The notes below the pieces were generated by a model. It worked only from the letters and a program-made list of their open reading frames with translations. It was not told the origin of the DNA and searched no databases. A stretch of DNA of 61,822 nucleotides from Sanguibacter inulinus (GTDB lineage: Bacteria; Actinomycetota; Actinomycetes; Actinomycetales; Cellulomonadaceae). The stretch is from the NCBI RefSeq assembly GCF_013415325.1, contig NZ_JACBYE010000025.1, forward strand, positions 1 through 61,822. The letters are read 5' to 3'. Positions within the stretch are counted from its first letter, which is position 1; each line of letters begins with the position of its first letter. The position numbers were made by a program, and so were the translations under genes. This document shows, in pieces, positions 3,572 to 37,777 of this stretch.

Positions 3572-4642
3572 ATGACTGCGCACGACCACGACAGCCTGGC
3601 TGCCGTCCCCGCGGGGCCGGCGCCGCTCGCGACGGTCGCCGCTGCCGCCGGCGTCTCGGTCCCCACGGTGTCGAAGGTGCTCAACTCGCGCCCAGACGTC
3701 TCCGCCGCCACCCGGGCGAAGGTCCAGGCCGCGCTCGAGGCGCACGGCCACACCGTGCGCCGACCCGTCAGCAAGCCGACGGGTCTGGTCGACATCCGGG
3801 TCGTCAGCCTGGAGAGCACCTGGTCCGAGGCCGTCGTCCGCGGGGCTGCCGAGAGCGCCCGTCGCCACGGCGTCGACCTCGTCATCACCGTCGACCCCGA
3901 CCCTGACGACTGCGGGGCGTGGGTGCGGCACGCCCTGGCGCGCGGGACCGACGGGGCCGTGAGCGTCGTGACGGTGCCCGACGCCGCCGAGCGGCAGGCC
4001 TTCGCCGACGCCCTCGTACCCGTGGTCGTCGTCGACCCGCGGGTGCGCCCGCCCGAGGGCCTGCTGAGCGTCGGGGCGACCAACTGGCAGGGCGGCCTCG
4101 ACGCGACGGCGCACCTGGTGGCGCTCGGTCACCGCAGGATCGGCACCATCACCGGGGACGACGCGCAGGCGAACGCGCTCGCGCGGCTCGCCGGGTACCG
4201 CACGGCGCTCATCCAGGCGGGGATCGCGCCCGACGACTCCCTCGTCCGGCGCGGCGACTTCACGGTCGACGCCGGCTACGAAGAGGCGTGGCACCTGCTG
4301 TCCCTCGACGACAGACCGACGGCCATCGTCGCGAGCAGCGACGACACAGCCCTCGGCGCGCTCCGGGCCGTGCGGGAGGCAGGGCTGCGGGTCCCCGACG
4401 ACGTCTCCCTCGTCGGTTTCGACGACCTGCCGATCGCCGCGTGGCTCGACCCTGCGCTGACGACGGTCCACCAGCCGCTCGTCGAGATGGGGGCTGCAGC
4501 CGTCGACCTCCTGCACCGCGCGCGGTCGGGGACCGGTCACACCGTGCGGGCCGAGCTCGCGACGACCCTCGTCGAGCGGGCGTCGACAGCGCCCCCGCCC
4601 GCTGTCGTGCGGAGTCCTGCACACCCTCGACAGAAGACCTGA
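3572..4642 (+). CDS. LacI family transcriptional regulator
   Basis: A 356-residue LacI/GalR regulator. The N-terminal helix-turn-helix at about residues 19-42 ([20 protein letters not shown]) has the typical hinge-helix continuation, followed by a periplasmic-binding-protein-like effector domain with conserved segments such as [27 protein letters not shown] and [25 protein letters not shown] 3572 is chosen because GGAGA lies 5 bases upstream and because the HTH starts soon after; in-frame upstream starts add a low-complexity stretch. It is convergent with the GH144-like gene at 4724-6955, so control of that glucanase by a sugar ligand is plausible but unproven. Confidence 0.88.
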
Positions 4643-21581: not shown

Positions 21582-21878
21582 TCACCAGTGCGGCGGCACG
21601 TCCCGACGCAGCCGGTCGTCGTTGGCGTCGTCAGCCGACCCGTTGCCGGTGACCTCGTCGGCCCAGCCAGACGAGGTCTCGTCCGCGCTCAGCCCTGCGA
21701 CAGCCTCACGCTCGGGCCCCTTCCGGACCACCCGGCGGTGCCCACGTCGACGCGGTGTCTCGGGAGCGCCAGCAGGATCAGCCCCCTCGCGCTGCACCAC
21801 CGAGGCCGGTCGCTCCGGAGCAGAATGCCCCGGGCCAGGGCGGCCGCCGTCCGGCGCGCCGCCCTCTCCCGGGGTCAC
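21582..21878 (-). CDS. Small acidic-tailed protein ending in RRDVPPHW
   Basis: A 98-residue protein. The first two thirds are Pro/Gly/Arg-rich and probably disordered. The C-terminus, GLSADETSSGWADEV then DDANDDRLRRDVPPHW, is acidic and ends in PPHW, a tail I recall from small conserved actinobacterial proteins of unknown function. GTG 21878 overlaps the stop of the pseudo-helicase by 4 bases (GTGA), indicating translational coupling and a shared role. A longer in-frame start at 22013 would lie inside the helicase gene and is less likely. Confidence 0.6.
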   Translation of the reverse strand: MTPGEGGAPDGGRPGPGHSAPERPASVVQREGADPAGAPETPRRRGHRRVVRKGPEREAVAGLSADETSSGWADEVTGNGSADDANDDRLRRDVPPHW

Positions 21879-24800
21879 AGGCCCAGTGTCCGGCGCACCG
21901 CGCTCGACACGGCGATGTCCACGCGGTTGCTCCTGCGGACGATCCCCAGCTCGGAGCGCACCTGCGCTGCGAGCTCGTCGGCGTCGCGCGGGAGGCCGTC
22001 GGTCATGATCCACCGGGCCAGCTCGTCGAGGTCGTCGTCGCCGTAGGCGGCGATGGGCAGCCCGGGCTCGACGTCGGGTCGGCTCGCGCGGCGGACCGCC
22101 TCGCGCGGCTGCGGCACGTCCCCCTCGGTGAGCAGAGGAGCGGTGACCACGGGGACAGGCGCCGACGGGTCGACAACCTCTCCGGCAAGACCGTCAGCGT
22201 CGGCGAGCCCTGCGATGTCTCCGGCGTCGTCGAGACCGACCAGCGGGATCGCCCCGGTCACCGGCATGCGGGCCGCGCGGCGGCGCGCCTCGATGTCCAG
22301 GACGGTCTCGCGGATCCGCATGGCCTGACCCTCGGGGTCGAGGAACAGCGAGACGGACCACACCTGGACCACAGACCAGCCCAGACGTTCCAGCCGCTCG
22401 GCGCGCTGGCGGTCCCGGACGCGGATGCTCGTCTCTGCCGTGTAGTCGGCGTCGTCGGTGAGGACGGCGACGAGCAGCTCGTCGGGCAGGTCGGGGTGGC
22501 CGACCACGAGCGGGATGTGCTCGCCGTCGGCGGCGCCGTGGTGCGTCTCGACCGTGAGCCCTGCGCGGAACAGTCGCTCCGCGAGGTCCAGGACGAGGCG
22601 GTCCGGGTCGGGCTGACCCTCGATGAACCGACCGACGTCGTGCACAGGGCTGGCCGACCGCTGCTCCGCGAAGTCGAGGAGCGAGCCGAGCAGCTGGGCT
22701 CCCGCGCCGCGCAGGCGCTCGGGGTCGAGGTCCTCGGCCCCGAAGCACGAGACGACCGTGAGGCGGCGTCGTGTCGAGCCGATCGCGTTGAGGAGCAGGG
22801 AGTCTCCGGTGGGCCCGGACACGTCGCCGAAGTTGTGCAGCACCCGGCCGTGCGGGGTCCGACCGAAGCCGACCGAGAAGATCACGGCCTCGCGGCTCAG
22901 CCCGGCGACAGACTGCAGGTCGGAGACGACCACGGGCTCACGGCGCGAGGGGTCGAAGAACGGGCCGAGGGCCGCGTTCTGGCGCACCTGCCCGAGGATC
23001 GCCTCGCGGATGCGGTCGGCGTGCGCGCGCGACCCGGTGATGATCCCGAGGGACTCGTCGGGACGGTCGAGGGCGTGCATGATCGCGAGCTCGACCACCC
23101 GGTCGACCTCGGTCTGCGTGGACTCGACAGCACCCGACACGGGGTCGGGCATGCCGACGCCGTCGACGGTCTCGAAGAAGACCAGACGCTCCTGGGAGGG
23201 CAGCGGCATCGGGTGCAGGACACCCGCGTAGCCGTGCTGCGACAAGAACTGCGTGAGCTCGGGGTCGCGCCGCGAGGCGTCACCGGCGAGGCCGACCGTC
23301 GGCAGCAGCTCCGCGAGGCTGCGGACAGCCTGACCCGGCGCGCAGCGGGCGTCGCCCACCACGACGATCTGGCGGCCGCGGGCGATCGCCGACAGGACGG
23401 ACTCGACGGGCAGGTGCTGCGCGGCATCGAGGATCACGAGGTCCACGGTGCGGTGCGCGGGGAGCACGTGCGGCACGAGGGTCGGTGTCGCGATCATGCA
23501 GGGGCGGAGCTTGCGCAGCACGTCGCCGTACTCGTCGGCCACGGTCCGCAGGCTCGTCAGCGACTCTTCCACGAGGAGCGCGAAGAGACCCTCGGCCTGC
23601 TCCCTGTTGTCGCGGAGCGCTCCGTGGATCTGCGCGACGGCAGCCGCGCGGATCGGGGTGGCGAGGGAGTCGACGTGCTCGCGGTCGAGGGTGCGGAAGG
23701 TCTCGGCGAGCGCCTCGATGCCCCGGCCGCCGACCTCGGCGACGTAGGGGTCCGCGGCGAGGATCTGCTCGAAGACCGAGCTCCACCAGGCGAGGTCGAG
23801 CTCGGCCTCGACCAGCCCGCGCTCGACGCGGCGGGCGGTGAGGTCGGTGAGCAGCGTGCCGAGCCCGTGAGCCGTGAGGCTGCGGACCAGACGGGTGCGC
23901 TCGGGCAACGAGGTGAGCGCCCCGCGGTCGTCGAGCAGACGCTGCAGGCGCTCGGTGAGGTCGCCGAGGGTCATCCCGGCGAGACCGGCACCTGCCGAGG
24001 TCGTCGCGAGGACGGCGTCGAGGGCTGTGAGGTCCTCGACCACGTCGCGGTAGGTCTGCTCGATGGCTGCGAGGCCCTCCGGCAGTCGCGGCCATCCGCC
24101 GGACGGGCAGTGCTCGGCCCAGGTCTGGCGCTGCGCCTGGACCTCGAGCAGCGCAGAGTGCAGGTCGGCGACGCGTGAGCCGGGACGGATCATGTCCTTC
24201 GCACGCTTGACGAGGCGGCGGCGGTGCAGCCCGCTCATCTCGACGTCGTGCTCGTTGCGCCACTGACGGCTCGCCGTCGCGGCGACCAGGTCGTCGGCGG
24301 TCCGCTCGAAGACCATCGGCTGGAAGACCTCGAGGGTCGTGCGCATGCCGGCGAGCATCTCGATCTGCTCGCCCCAGGCGGAGACCGTGCGGGCGGCCTG
24401 CAGCCCGGTGTCCTCGACCACGGCGTCCATCTGCCTGCGGAGGTCGGCGAGCGAGACGTCGAGCAGCCGGGTGATCCGGGCGACGGCGTCCTCGGCCGTG
24501 GCGTCGGTGTCGATGTCAGCCCCGTACCAGGGCGAGGTGCCCGGCTGGGCGGAGAACGCGTCGAGGGACGCGGCGCGGACCAGGTCGGCGCCGACCTCCT
24601 GGCGCACCGAGGCGATGCGCGCGAGCGTCGCGGCGTCGAGCCTGACCGTCGTGGCGGGGGTCGGTCGTTCGGAGGTGAGCCGGGCCAGTGCCTGGAGCGC
24701 GTCGTAGGCGGAGATGTCCCACGGAGCACGCAGCTGGTGCAGGCCGTCGATCATCCGGGTGAGCCTGGACCGGGTCTCCACGAGGGCGAGGCGGGTGTCG

Positions 24801-26224
24801 GCGATGCGCGCGGCGTCGACAGTCGGCGCCTCGAGGGTCATGGCACCGAGCAGGCGGCGCGACACCGAGGTGCGCCAGCTGGGGCTCGGGGTGACGTCGA
24901 GGACCAGGTCCCCGAGACCGAGGTCCTCCAGGCGCGCGGTGAGCGCGTCGGCGGCGCGACGGTGGCCGGGGACGTACAGGACGCTGCGGCCGATGGCTGC
25001 TGCCTCCGCGACCACCGCTGCGACGGCGCCTGTGGCGTCGGCGCCCACGGGGGCGTCGACGAAGAGGTGGCTGCCCGTGGCGAGCGCGTCCAGGACGTTG
25101 CGGCCCGAGGGGTCGAGGTCGCCGACACCACGCTCCATGTTGGGCTCGGCGTCGCCCGTGCGCAGCGCGGGCATCGAGGCGGCGAGCGAGTCGATGGCTC
25201 CCTGGTCCCCGGCGAGAGCGGCGATGACCTCGTGACGGTCCAGCCCGATGTTGAGGTCGTCGAGGTCGTCGACGAGCATCTGCCCGGGGTGGGCGAAGGT
25301 CCCGACGAGCAGCTTGTCGGTCATGGTGAAGTCGGCGAGCACCGCCGAGCCGAGGGCGTTGATGCGGTCGAGGGCGACGGCAGGGTCGAAGCCCGAGCCC
25401 GTGAAGGCACCGCGGGCGAGGGCGGCGGCGTCGAGCAGGGCTCCGCGGGAGCGCAGCGCCCGGGCCAGCACGGGGTTGATCTCGGCCGTGGGCTCGAGGG
25501 CGAGCTCGTAGTCGGTCTCCCCTCCCCCGCGGGCCTCGATCTCGATCGGGCGCAGCAGGACCGGGGCGCGGACCGTGCGGCCTGCAGCGCGGGAGGCCTC
25601 GGCCGCGGCGTCGTCGTAGACCCCACGGTCGGACCCGCCGGAGAAGGCGACACGGGCGAGCGCTGCGACGTCGTCGGAGGTCTCGTCGACCTCGTGCTCG
25701 GTCCAGGTCGCGAGCCCGATCGCCAGATACGTCGGAGCGATGCCGTAGCGCTCGGCCTGCTCCTGGGAGCGCTGGGCGACGGCGCGCGCGCGGCGGCGGG
25801 CGACGGGCAGCGAGCTGCCCTCGCGGAAGATGTTCGCCAGGCGGGTGCTGCGGCCGGCGAAGAGCTGGGCGATGCCCGACGGGTGCGCGGCGGTGAGGTC
25901 GAGGACAGCGTCGCCGAGCAGACCGACGTCGGCGAGCGTCGAGCCGCCGGCCAGCGAGACCAGGGTCGAGCGCCAGCGGTCGATCGCGGCGGCGACGGTC
26001 TCGGCCGTGGTGGCAGGCTTGACGAGGGTGGGGACCGTGCGCATGGCACGCGTCTCGGCGTTCGCGTCGGCGTCGCCGTGGACCGCGCCGGAGGCGGACT
26101 GGTCCGTGCTGGTCATGTCAGGGGTTCTCTCGCTGGACGGGTCGTGAGGCGCAGCCGGGCTCGGGTCGTGGTCGGAGCGGGCCCTGTCGGTCCCCGCCGT
26201 CCTGTCGCGATCGGGAGCTGTCAC
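21875..26224 (-). CDS. Giant degenerate SF1 helicase with C-terminal Vsr/MTES_1575-like domain
   Basis: About 1,449 residues from GTG 26224 (1,413 from ATG 26116). The order is that of DUF4011-type helicases: an N-terminal alpha-rich region, split RecA folds and a C-terminal Vsr-like PD-(D/E)XK domain. The key motifs are eroded. The P-loop position reads DAPVGADATGA with no GKT; motif II reads VILDAAQH instead of DEAxQ; motif III is VVVGDARC; the late motifs VVVSDLQSVAGLSREAVIFS and NAIGSTRRRL keep the fold. The nuclease-like end (VVGHPDLPDELLVAVLTDDADY, then RVRDRQRAERLERLGW) lacks the usual D and E-x-D residues. It is probably a conserved pseudoenzyme of unknown function. The preceding 718 bp hold a promoter, a terminator and iterons. 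Confidence 0.75.
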   Translation of the reverse strand: MTAPDRDRTAGTDRARSDHDPSPAAPHDPSSERTPDMTSTDQSASGAVHGDADANAETRAMRTVPTLVKPATTAETVAAAIDRWRSTLVSLAGGSTLADVGLLGDAVLDLTAAHPSGIAQLFAGRSTRLANIFREGSSLPVARRRARAVAQRSQEQAERYGIAPTYLAIGLATWTEHEVDETSDDVAALARVAFSGGSDRGVYDDAAAEASRAAGRTVRAPVLLRPIEIEARGGGETDYELALEPTAEINPVLARALRSRGALLDAAALARGAFTGSGFDPAVALDRINALGSAVLADFTMTDKLLVGTFAHPGQMLVDDLDDLNIGLDRHEVIAALAGDQGAIDSLAASMPALRTGDAEPNMERGVGDLDPSGRNVLDALATGSHLFVDAPVGADATGAVAAVVAEAAAIGRSVLYVPGHRRAADALTARLEDLGLGDLVLDVTPSPSWRTSVSRRLLGAMTLEAPTVDAARIADTRLALVETRSRLTRMIDGLHQLRAPWDISAYDALQALARLTSERPTPATTVRLDAATLARIASVRQEVGADLVRAASLDAFSAQPGTSPWYGADIDTDATAEDAVARITRLLDVSLADLRRQMDAVVEDTGLQAARTVSAWGEQIEMLAGMRTTLEVFQPMVFERTADDLVAATASRQWRNEHDVEMSGLHRRRLVKRAKDMIRPGSRVADLHSALLEVQAQRQTWAEHCPSGGWPRLPEGLAAIEQTYRDVVEDLTALDAVLATTSAGAGLAGMTLGDLTERLQRLLDDRGALTSLPERTRLVRSLTAHGLGTLLTDLTARRVERGLVEAELDLAWWSSVFEQILAADPYVAEVGGRGIEALAETFRTLDREHVDSLATPIRAAAVAQIHGALRDNREQAEGLFALLVEESLTSLRTVADEYGDVLRKLRPCMIATPTLVPHVLPAHRTVDLVILDAAQHLPVESVLSAIARGRQIVVVGDARCAPGQAVRSLAELLPTVGLAGDASRRDPELTQFLSQHGYAGVLHPMPLPSQERLVFFETVDGVGMPDPVSGAVESTQTEVDRVVELAIMHALDRPDESLGIITGSRAHADRIREAILGQVRQNAALGPFFDPSRREPVVVSDLQSVAGLSREAVIFSVGFGRTPHGRVLHNFGDVSGPTGDSLLLNAIGSTRRRLTVVSCFGAEDLDPERLRGAGAQLLGSLLDFAEQRSASPVHDVGRFIEGQPDPDRLVLDLAERLFRAGLTVETHHGAADGEHIPLVVGHPDLPDELLVAVLTDDADYTAETSIRVRDRQRAERLERLGWSVVQVWSVSLFLDPEGQAMRIRETVLDIEARRRAARMPVTGAIPLVGLDDAGDIAGLADADGLAGEVVDPSAPVPVVTAPLLTEGDVPQPREAVRRASRPDVEPGLPIAAYGDDDLDELARWIMTDGLPRDADELAAQVRSELGIVRRSNRVDIAVSSAVRRTLGL

Positions 26225-26390
26225 CCCAGCACGGTATCTGGCCGGGACGGCGTTCGTGGCCTGACGCGCCGACGACGAGGGCCACGACGGGCCCGGGCGC
26301 TGCTGGAAGGGGTTGTCCGGCACCTCGACGGAGCGGTGACCTGGCCGTCCGTGACCGGGCTGAGCGCGGCGGGAAGGGCGGGGTGCGTCC

Positions 26391-26440
26391 GGAGAAAAAG
26401 GAACAGTGCGTGCCGCGCAGGGGGCAGGCGGCACGCACTG
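26391..26440 (-). terminator. Leader terminator before the pseudo-helicase
   Basis: On the minus strand a 13-bp stem (26440-26428 with 26416-26404, 11-base loop) is followed by TTCCTTTTTCTCC, a true T-run, rare in this genome. It starts about 10 bases after the -10 box at 26450-26455, so the transcript would be only ~50-60 nt unless read through. It may be an attenuator or the end of a small RNA. Confidence 0.75.
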
Positions 26441-26449
26441 TCAGGGACA

Positions 26450-26478
26450 ACTATGCACTCGCCCAGATCGAGTGTCAA
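26450..26478 (-). promoter_or_regulatory. Strong promoter with embedded CIRCE-like operator
   Basis: On the minus strand TTGACA (26478-26473) and CATAGT (26455-26450) are separated by exactly 17 bases. Between and across them lies, on the plus strand, TATGCACTC-N9-GAGTGTCAA (26452-26478). It matches the CIRCE consensus at 14 of 18 positions with the correct 9-base spacing. A bound HrcA-like repressor would block RNA polymerase directly. Confidence 0.6.
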
Positions 26479-26602
26479 CAGGGAAGTTGAATCTTCTTCC
26501 AGATCGGTTCGACGGGCTGTTCGCCGCGGTGCGTGGGCGAGGGTCTCACCTGCGGTTCTGCGCTCCGGGGCCCTGCCGGGACCACGTGCGAGAGCGCCTG
26601 TC

Positions 26603-26616
26603 GTGACCCTGGTCAC
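26603..26616. promoter_or_regulatory. Palindrome GTGACC-CT-GGTCAC
   Basis: A 6-bp perfect inverted repeat with a 2-base spacer in the long intergenic region before tRNA-Arg. Possible operator; nothing ties it to a specific gene. Apart from this, 26485-26700 shows no coding signal. Confidence 0.25.
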
Positions 26617-26702
26617 CCACGCGCCCACTCTCGCCAGCCGCTCCTCACCGCAGCCCGCCAGGCCACGACCACCCACCCGCACGCCCACAGGTCCCCACCT
26701 CG

Positions 26703-26845
26703 AGGTCGCACGGTTCACACCCAGGTCGTACGTCAGGCACCGAAGTCGTACGGACACGCCGTCCTGACGCCCCTAGCCCGGAGATCTGGCGTGTCCGTGC
26801 GACCTCGCGAGAGCTGCGACGACCTCGTCGGTGTCCTGGCGACCT
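26703..26845. repeat. Phased inverted-iteron element, copy A
   Basis: AGGTCG occurs at 26703 and 26723, and AAGTCG at 26743, exactly 20 bp apart. The inverse CGACCT occurs at 26800, 26820 and 26840, again exactly 20 bp apart. The innermost pair (offset 57 bp) forms 19-bp inverted arms, 26742-26760 and 26788-26806 (17 of 19 complementary), around a 27-bp spacer. A second copy with the same core spacing lies at 31341-31444. It sits in the gap between the pseudo-helicase promoter and tRNA-Arg. Confidence 0.85.
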
Positions 26846-26942
26846 CGTGGAGAGACGGACGTCTGGGGAGGGGCACCGCGACTCTGGTTGCCGGCCGTGG
26901 CAGGGATCACGGGCGACTGTCAGGTAGCCTTGTCTCGCTCTC

Positions 26943-27018
26943 GCGCCCGTAGCTCAGGGGATAGAGCACCGCTCTCCTAAAGCGGGTGTCGGCAGTTCGA
27001 ATCTGCCCGGGCGCACCA
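26943..27018 (+). tRNA. tRNA-Arg (anticodon CCT)
   Basis: A 76-base cloverleaf. The acceptor GCGCCCG pairs with CGGGCGC; the D-loop is AGCTCAGGGGATAGAGC; the anticodon stem-loop CCGCT-CTCCTAA-AGCGG gives anticodon CCT, reading AGG. The T-arm is GGCAGTTCGAATCTGCC and CCA is encoded. A possible -10 box TAGCCT lies at about 26925. Confidence 0.97.
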
Positions 27019-27071
27019 GTTCTCCCCTGTCTCGGCGTGCACCAGCGCGAGACCAGCGGCGCCCCAGGGCG

Positions 27072-27428
27072 TCAGACCTTCTTCACCACGCTCGACTTGA
27101 GCTGCATCGGACCGAAGCCGTCGACCTTGCAGTCGATGTCGTGGTCGCCCACCCCGTCGACGAGCCTGATGCCGCGCACCTTGGTGCCGACCTTGATGGC
27201 GGTCGCGCTGCCCTTGACCTTGAGGTCTTTGACGACGGTGACGGTGTCGCCGTCCTGCAGCACGTTGCCGACGGCGTCGCGGATCTCGCGCGGGCCGTCA
27301 GACGCCTCGGCCGGGTCTCCCTCAGCGGGCTCCCACTCGTGGGCGCACTCGGGGCAGACGAGCAGCGCACCCATCTCGTAGGTGTAGACGGAGGAGCACT
27401 CGGGGCACGGGGGCAGGGTGTCGGTCAC
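27072..27428 (-). CDS. yjdM: PhnA/YjdM zinc-ribbon domain protein
   Basis: A 118-residue protein of the PhnA (YjdM) family. The N-terminal zinc ribbon has CPEC at 8-11 and a second CPEC near 25-28; the C-terminal SH3-like domain has the family run [33 protein letters not shown] and ending [10 protein letters not shown]. Despite the name, the family is not required for phosphonate use and its biochemical role is unclear. GTG 27428 is the start. It stands alone, tail to tail with tRNA-Arg. Confidence 0.92.
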
Positions 27429-30765: not shown

Positions 30766-31295
30766 CAGGCCGTCCGGCAGCGCACGACGCTGCAGCCGAG
30801 GGCCGAGGTCTGCGACGGGTGAGCGTCTCCCGGGAGCTGCCCGGGCAGCCCGGTGACGTCTTCGACCTGGTGGCCGACGTCCGCCACCACTCGCGGTGGA
30901 TCCCGCTGACCTGGGGTTCGTTCCCCGTGGAACCATCGGGCCGTCCGCTCCCCGACGGCCCCCTGCCGTTGGGCGCTCGGTTCACCATGTACAGCCACCC
31001 GGGGATCGTCGACCGCATGGAGGTCGTCGGTCTCGAACGTCCCGCCGGCGACGCGCTGAGCGGCACCGAGCGCCACAGGCTCGTGCTGCGCAAGGCCGGA
31101 CCGCTGCTCGAGGGGACGGCGGGCATCGACGTCGAGCCCGTCGACCATGCGACGAGCCTGGTCACCTGGTGGGAAGAGGTCTACCTCGCCGGACCGCTCC
31201 CGGCCCGCCTGACGTCCCCGCTCCTCGGGGTACCCCTCGGTCTCATGCTCCGCCTGGCACTGCACAGGGTGTCCCGCGAGCTCGACGCAGCCTGA
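30762..31295 (+). CDS. SRPBCC (START-like) family protein
   Basis: A 177-residue protein of the polyketide-cyclase/START-like superfamily. It shows SVSRELPGQPGDVFDLVADVRHHSRWIP at the start of the helix-grip fold, central beta strands with DRMEVVGLE, and the C-terminal helix GLMLRLALHRVSRELDAA. These domains bind hydrophobic ligands; the ligand is unknown. It is translationally coupled to the EcsC-like gene. It is followed by a 330-bp non-coding region holding the second phased-iteron element. Confidence 0.75.
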   Translation: MTGRPAAHDAAAEGRGLRRVSVSRELPGQPGDVFDLVADVRHHSRWIPLTWGSFPVEPSGRPLPDGPLPLGARFTMYSHPGIVDRMEVVGLERPAGDALSGTERHRLVLRKAGPLLEGTAGIDVEPVDHATSLVTWWEEVYLAGPLPARLTSPLLGVPLGLMLRLALHRVSRELDAA

Positions 31296-31340
31296 CCCCG
31301 GGCCTGCCCCGGGCCCCACAGGCGCCTCCCGTGACCGGCG

Positions 31341-31444
31341 AGGTCGCCCTCCCTAGGGCGAGGTCGCCCCTCTGACCTCGAGGTCGTACAGACACGCCAG
31401 AACAGCCCCGGATCGCCCGGTATTCGGCGTGTCCGTACGACCTC
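31341..31444. repeat. Phased inverted-iteron element, copy B
   Basis: AGGTCG occurs at 31341, 31361 and 31381, exactly 20 bp apart, and the inverse CGACCT at 31438. The offset between the inner pair is 57 bp, identical to copy A. The 19-bp arms 31380-31398 and 31426-31444 are complementary at 18 of 19 positions around a 27-bp spacer. Right-hand outer iterons are degenerate. The gap 31296-31625 otherwise shows nothing recognisable. Confidence 0.85.
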
Positions 31445-31625
31445 GCGCGCGAGCTCGGTCCTCAGGTGAGGGGTGGACCCGCGGAGCGCGAGGTGTTCCC
31501 GCGCGCTCTCGCAGGTCCGGGCGTAGTGTCGGCCATCACACAGACCGTGCGACGGCCGGCCGGGAGACCCTCCGGACGGCTCAGCGTCACCCCTCGCCAC
31601 GAGCGACAGCCTGAGGAGCCCGCCG

Positions 31626-37595: not shown

Positions 37596-37610
37596 AAGTT
37601 CTCTCCAGTA

Positions 37611-37777
37611 CGCCTGCGAGGTCAGCTGTCGGGTTCGAGTAGGAGAACACTCGGCCTCACGACCGTCAGACGGTCGTGGGGCTTCACCCCAAGGACGCTG
37701 CGAGCAGCGCCCAGATTTGGGTCCCCCGTCCCTGCCATGCGGGTTGTCGGCGGCTCATGCAGTGGCAGGGTTAGGCG
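37611..37777 (-). ncRNA. c-di-AMP riboswitch (ydaO-yuaA type)
   Basis: The minus-strand leader carries the class landmarks in order: ATCGCCTAACCCTGCC at the 5' end, GGGGGACCCAAATCTGGG, GGGGTGAAGCCCC, a variable hairpin CGACCGTC-TGA-GACGGTCG-like, and the 3' core CGAACCCGACAGCTGACC then TCGCAGGCGT. P1 forms between CGCCT (37777-37773) and AGGCG (37615-37611). It ends 15 bases before the NlpC/P60 start region. In actinobacteria this riboswitch class usually turns wall-hydrolase genes off at high c-di-AMP. Confidence 0.88.

Follow-up and report, generated by a model that had tools for sequence, protein, structure and literature searches.

What could read a block of DNA in which three short words face three inverted ones in exact 20-bp steps is the question raised by an intergenic locus of Sanguibacter inulinus, located in the 61,822-nt stretch analysed here (the window). 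The array, termed copy A, spans positions 26,701–26,847 and has no strand of its own; it comprises, on the plus strand, left outer word 2 (CGAGGTCGCAC, 26,701–26,711), left outer word 1 (CCAGGTCGTAC, 26,721–26,731) and the left arm of the core (CGAAGTCGTACGGACACGCC, 26,741–26,760), then a 27-nt loop (26,761–26,787), of which only the 4–5 nt beside the arms are conserved between copies, and, on the minus strand, the right arm (GGCGTGTCCGTGCGACCTCG, 26,788–26,807) and right outer words 1 (26,817–26,827) and 2 (26,837–26,847), whose plus-strand readings are CGACGACCTCG and TGGCGACCTCG. Three words face three around the core, and a 6-of-9 rule scores two outward words on each side. The original prediction had placed six words here: AGGTCG at 26,703 and 26,723 and CGACCT at 26,800, 26,820 and 26,840 stand where it put them, with both trios exactly 20 bp apart; the sixth is correctly located at 26,743, and its letters are AAGTCG, one base off AGGTCG. 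As for the inverted arms of the inner pair, the 27-nt gap holds, and the arms are 20 nt long rather than 19, with 90% complementarity between 26,741–26,760 and 26,788–26,807.

Anatomy and phasing of the arrays

Copy A proved to be one of many, beyond what had been noted at the outset. A second array, copy B (31,339–31,445, likewise unstranded), lies in the same window, with arms at 31,379–31,398 and 31,426–31,445, left words at 31,339 and 31,359 and no right word by the 6-of-9 rule; genome-wide, 36 arrays with a paired core were found, these two included (genome G000, the assembly of the window). Compared with its own assembly, the copy A fragment gave 57 matches on both strands, itself included, mostly 68–81% identical. 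A scan with the exact gapped core pattern hit 20 genomic places and one with its reversed control none, which bears out the claim that the symmetry is not accidental; together with the phase counts given below, this rules out a chance origin. A congener taken as S. keddieii (G003; one contig of 4,253,413 bp, starting with dnaA, dnaN, recF and gyrB) holds 18 arrays, one of them poor. Rows dropped for G000 were L044 (same place as L023), L040 (the window itself), and L039, L043 and L045, which have no core pair; in G003, L078 has no pair, and L082 (52 bp, four mismatches) was excluded from the phase, arm and loop tests and retained in the context and position counts.

Regarding the layout, the facing GG and CC stand 61 bp apart in 34 of the 36 G000 arrays and 60 bp apart in the other two, so that the core, including both arms, measures 67 bp. 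It is built as a near-invariant CGAGGTCGYACRGACACGCC, 27 free positions and the mirror of the first element, and it is extended outward by CGAGGTCGYAC words in 20-bp phase. When the 72 half-sites are aligned on the core, the (near-)invariant CGAGGTCGYACRGACACGCC is followed by a softer RGA(T/A)C and by little beyond; CGAGGTCGYAC recurs outward at −20 and, more weakly, at −40, with information near zero in between, and the information peaks coincide with the words and the GACACGCC core. Up to 140 bp outward, the number of words per arm ranges from 0 to 7, and the bases of the spacers and loops are unconserved.

The 20-bp phase was counted on 53 arrays (36 from G000, 17 from G003), scoring 103 of the 106 arms, with three arms too near a stretch end to be scored. 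Out of 220 same-orientation outward words, 173 fall at exact multiples of 20 bp and the other 47 elsewhere between 8 and 140 bp, against about 17 expected across all positions from base shuffles (binomial P ~4e-186); a word stands at exactly 20 bp in 95 of the 103 arms. Successive words are 20 bp apart in 178 cases, 19 bp in nine and 21 bp in one, with about 30 at other distances. This count also favours the original prediction on the point it had offered for its own refutation, namely that such words might be found equally often at random spacings. Adjacent spacers are alike at 5.5 of 10 positions versus 4.1 for random pairs, which suggests that the number of words grows by duplication of 20-bp units. 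A codon-like bias left by a decayed gene was considered and ruled out, since the arrays of G000 and G003 all lie outside called genes and 20 bp is not a multiple of 3.

The symmetry of the arrays could be read on double-stranded DNA or as a hairpin, and covariation of the arms bears on the choice: if pairing were required, the two arms of a single copy would be expected to agree, left base with right, more often than re-paired arms do. In G000 and G003 no such covariation occurs in the loop (z of 1.2 and −1.7), the spacers or the outer words; the core covaries slightly (z of 1.8 in G000 and 3.0 in G003), chiefly at position 5, a pyrimidine position concordant in 27 of 36 G000 and 16 of 17 G003 arrays. 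Because the arms do not covary except at this one core position, the Sanguibacter words appear to be sites that a protein would read on the double strand, and the long single-stranded hairpin proposed as an alternative is a poor account of them. Among related elements in other genera (the cousins described below), Actinotalea arms do not covary, whereas those of Isoptericola do (z of 2.8), as do those of the Pseudactinotalea-like or related genomes G223 (3.4), G281 (2.2), G158 (4.8) and G330 (2.8), where the signal is partly a sub-family effect. Neither this nor the slight core covariation is predicted by a pure double-strand reading; a hairpin is quite conceivable in the cousins yet explains the Sanguibacter arrays poorly, even though the symmetric core folds well as RNA in copies A and B.

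Two arrays have extra words outside the common plan: left of the L034 core (~3789–3980), pairs of words 20 bp apart recur every 37–38 bp or so, off the 20-bp lattice, and on the right side of L028 (~4171–4255) a second run of five words is shifted by 4 bp relative to the phase of the first. Rfam searches of six sources (the window, L032, L046, L056, L058 and L060) returned two tRNAs and a c-di-AMP riboswitch only, with no match to the array family.

Genomic setting, conservation and spread

Gene context was taken from a home-made gene caller that ignores tRNAs. On this basis, the 33 G000 arrays that could be classified comprise 21 between convergent, 11 between tandem and one between divergent genes, with three more at contig ends; in G003, 13 of 17 are convergent, three tandem and one divergent, with one more at a stretch end. 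With copies treated as independent, as for every P value given here, the convergent excess has P values of 1e-9 (G000) and 4e-8 (G003), with odds 12-fold and 27-fold those of the other gene pairs in the fetched stretches, and several arrays begin 18–60 bp past a stop codon. Copies A and B stand outside this main class, A between the start of a leftward gene and a rightward tRNA, and B between tandem genes. Gene ends are favoured by the cousins as well, with counts of five convergent, eight tandem and two divergent (15 loci from five genomes, two of the loci being the same element); of 34 loosely matched cousin pairs, 10 lay inside called genes, and two of these 10 (Isoptericola L052 and L054) had the exact element length, so that the intergenic rule is not absolute in the cousins.

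Along the chromosome, 15 of the 18 G003 arrays fall in the origin half (P = 0.0075, with gene content uncontrolled and for Sanguibacter only). The same holds for 28 of the 34 mapped G000 arrays (P = 0.0002 by copy and 0.007 by contig; two unmapped), for which contigs were placed on G003 with synteny assumed, one position per contig and gene content again uncontrolled.

Seven arrays occupy the same gap in G000 as in G003, and another lies close by. Across these eight orthologous pairs, 280 of 304 positions of the core words are identical (92%), versus 3631 of 5636 four-fold degenerate sites of the neighbouring genes (64%; P = 4e-28), 83 of 160 spacer positions (52%) and, in the six pairs with loops of equal length, 40 of 114 loop positions (35%). 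The order of these values suggests that the words have been under selection while the rest drifted. It should be noted that the pair L019/L072 shares a neighbouring gene and perhaps not the gap; without it, the counts are 244 of 266 for the core, 71 of 140 for the spacers and 32 of 95 for the loops. Orthologous arrays differ in their number of words. A further 13 G000 arrays, copies A and B included, were compared with the syntenic G003 gap, and none has an array there; seven of these 13 empty gaps are only 33 to 163 bp. The comparison covers the eight arrays taken as shared and these 13, out of 36, the other 15 being outside it, and old gain and old loss of arrays are indistinguishable.

As for the relatives, the model built from the 36 copies (R1) matched in 10 of 119 genomes, its own included, with stricter filters applied above 40 genomes, and gave no match in the four other congeners; so patchy a distribution indicates that this is not a general essential system. 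Cousins with four words in a tight palindrome occur in G067 and G075, taken as Isoptericola chiayiensis and Actinotalea soli, and in others, and 114 of 132 facing pairs at cousin loci (15 to 120 bp, a few loci being counted twice) are spaced by 23/24, 43 or 62/63 bp. Of 396 genomes of the order, 18 contain a looser facing-word pattern, the own genome included, and the reversed control occurs once in each of four; judged by word conservation, 12 of the 18 are real (G000, G003, G067, G142, G391, G013, G121, G240, G158, G223, G281 and G330), and the other six have single, chance-like matches. In an even sample of the phylum, also of 396 genomes, only the own genome and four single chance-like matches emerged, and the control matched in three.

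The words differ between lineages, on the scheme GAG-N-TCG-N-AC. At least two word sub-families coexist in G223 and in G158 (L171, L172, L176, L177, L181 and L182 among them), and the four words of one element usually agree; typing covered 19 of 20 elements in G223, 12 of 13 in G281, 15 of 17 in G158, 8 of 8 in G330 and 0 of 4 in G121, with elements of other lengths and one overlapping frame excluded. Elements present in G158, G330 and G240 have identical counterparts in records of Pseudactinotalea suaedae, P. terrae and Actinomyces oris. Scanning named genomes for two exact words gave 36 stretches; facing arrays occur in Actinotalea, Pseudactinotalea, Isoptericola, Microbacterium sorbitolivorans and Actinomyces, and the lone tandem pairs of Streptomyces and others may have no relation to them. 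Viral contigs gave nothing in an exact two-word scan, and their sole facing-word match (L152, overlapping open reading frames) was put down to chance.

Possible function and rival explanations

Dispersed gene-end palindromes are well known in Proteobacteria, where their purpose is debated. Other bacterial systems share single traits with the arrays. Plasmid replication and partition iterons combine direct words about two helical turns apart with inverted pairs; unlike them, the arrays are chromosomal, number tens of copies and have no rep or par gene beside the loci examined. MatP-matS, Noc, SlmA and ParB-parS rely on dispersed conserved sites biased along the origin–terminus axis, as the arrays are toward the origin half, but the arrays are phased rather than single palindromes and are absent in close congeners. 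BldC-type operators present a variable count of direct words, bound head to tail at ~10-bp spacing; the number of words is variable in the arrays too, whereas their spacing is 20 bp, their plan is mirror-symmetric and they stand at gene ends instead of promoters. Closest are the REP, REPIN and BIME elements, which PMC3733652 describes as dispersed extragenic palindromes, placed mainly in convergent or unidirectional gaps soon after stop codons, patchy, and of several types per genome; the word Actinobacteria is absent from the text of that paper. Like these elements (GTAG and CGTC super-families), the arrays are intergenic, mostly convergent or unidirectional, near stops, patchy and of several types per genome; unlike REP, they number tens of copies and have a 67-bp core, direct words phased outward from it, spacers of free sequence and, in Sanguibacter, arms that covary little. 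REP dimers are their nearest relatives in behaviour, and the arrays are REP/BIME-like in genomic behaviour with a design of their own. Among the literature matches listed (titles and abstract openings), no description of a family of phased-word arrays was found, and going by those matches the family seems not to have been described before.

The reading that we tentatively favour is that of a REP/BIME-like gene-end family in which the phased words dock a cooperative, putative protein, probably for insulation or chromosome organisation. Conserved words and phase together with free spacers and loops point to a protein lattice, and in this the sequence comparison agrees with the original proposal of a multi-subunit DNA-binding assembly on a two-turn lattice. 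The protein would read every 11-bp word on one face of the helix, two turns apart; cooperative binding would proceed outward from the symmetric core, and the result would be a nucleoprotein block with mirror symmetry, in most cases where convergent transcription units meet. Most likely, such a block would insulate or organise the chromosome, by stopping polymerases, pinning supercoils or tethering origin-proximal DNA, and changes in word number through duplication of 20-bp units, to which the likeness of spacers points, would tune its occupancy. A bolder version, which we regard as possible but doubtful, holds that an actinobacterial putative protein on a strict 20-bp lattice builds blocks at origin-proximal convergent gene ends, making up a new system of insulation or chromosome organisation in which the words drift from one species to the next and the lattice (facing distances of ~23/24, 43 and 61–63 bp, steps of 19–20 bp) is kept.

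The gene-end position would equally suit a bidirectional terminator or 3'-end hairpin, with the core transcribed from either side, its long stem ending or protecting convergent transcripts and the outer words lengthening the stem. The placement of several arrays shortly after stop codons and the arm covariation of some relatives agree with this, as do the RNA folds of copies A and B, far better than those of shuffles (z from −4.4 to −8.0). Yet no stem-loop followed by a T run, as in intrinsic terminators, occurs in 26,100–27,100, the region scanned around copy A; the array linked to rpsA stands past an apparent stem-loop terminator (seen by eye) that follows the stop codon, and the four other congeners have no array at that site. 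These three results weaken a terminator role; moreover, a stem-loop resembling that of rpsA lies beside the L036 array, similar ones are present at the empty L032 and L036 sites of G003 (all by eye), the Sanguibacter arms hardly covary, and a terminator has no need of words phased at exactly 20 bp, so that we consider this reading quite unlikely. Separately, past an rpsA-like stop codon in G009 (L143) there is a long run of ~27-bp tandem repeats of unrelated sequence.

Another way to account for the patchy, lineage-specific abundance, the species-specific words, the distinct-word sub-families within one genome and the 13 of 13 empty G003 gaps is a selfish REP-like palindrome, spread by a mobilising enzyme that recognises the words, with gene ends as safe landing sites; REPs have a like gene-end bias according to PMC3733652. 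Against it, the words appear to be selected at old shared loci, copy A matches no plasmid or phage sequence, and recent copies are lacking: among 50 loops of equal length the best pair agrees at 15 of 19 positions, where the null maximum is 12–16, and since no pair exceeds chance, spread has not been by recent copying. The near-identical recent copies of a MITE or non-autonomous transposon are likewise missing from this comparison. Regarding the enzyme, RAYT (PF01797, Y1_Tnp) was detected in two of 59 genomes searched (G050 and G057, with no R1 match listed there) and in 5 of 14 control genomes; seven array-bearing genomes in the search (G000, G003, G012, G013, G018, G028 and G029) have none, and G067, G059 and G075 were outside it. 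REP units are hairpins of 20–40 bp with GTAG or CGTC at one end, and the core consensus of the arrays (CGAGGTCGYACRGACACGCC followed by RGA(T/A)C) bears neither tag. With no REP tag and no RAYT in the array-bearing genomes searched, membership of the RAYT/REPIN system was ruled out and the arrays are not filed under REP; together with loops that keep no trace of recent copying, the lack of RAYT also tells against the RAYT/Y1 kind of site for the transposase-like protein that had been among those suggested for copy A. Selfish spread is accordingly graded as unlikely. Far less probable still are plasmid-type iterons, whether as sites at which a replication or partition protein acts or as its chromosomal decoys: iteron origins carry 19–20-bp direct words and inverted pairs, which is the likeness, while the absence of a plasmid match, the 36 scattered copies and the lack of any replication or partition protein among the 28 distinct array-locus proteins scanned with Pfam speak against them.

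In practical terms, the sequences set the constrained parts of the arrays (words and phase) apart from the free ones (spacers and loops), and the arrays offer a ready bait of known geometry for the putative lattice protein; an array-rich S. keddieii, congeners that gave no array match, and loci with both filled and empty sites make insulation, termination and selfish spread directly testable.

Genes and features around the copies

The neighbours of the arrays give no lead to a binding protein, no linked gene being seen at the array loci in a survey of 293 neighbours, the majority without an assigned name; at eight G000 loci ABC-type ATPases, and at three LacI-type regulators, are encoded no more than three genes from an array, and both families are common. 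Copy A is flanked by a minus-strand gene (21,875–26,116) and by a plus-strand tRNA-Arg (CCT; 26,943–27,018). The former had been called a pseudo-helicase; it is an intact open reading frame for a 1413-aa protein with an MTES_1575 REase domain and a below-cut-off match to DUF4011, and G003 has a full-length match, 93.6% identical. This protein also matched the PADLOC models PDC-S37 (E = 2.8e-100) and Hhe (E = 7.3e-42), and for this reason it may be a candidate anti-phage defence protein. Directly downstream of a leftward promoter-like site (26,478–26,450) is a perfect 14-bp inverted repeat (26,403–26,441), kept in G003, which is possibly a 5' leader hairpin of the MTES_1575 gene. Copy B is preceded by a plus-strand gene with a Polyketide_cyc2 domain (30,819–31,295), which ends 44 bp ahead of the array. 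Finally, the c-di-AMP riboswitch of the window lies on the minus strand at 37,596–37,762.
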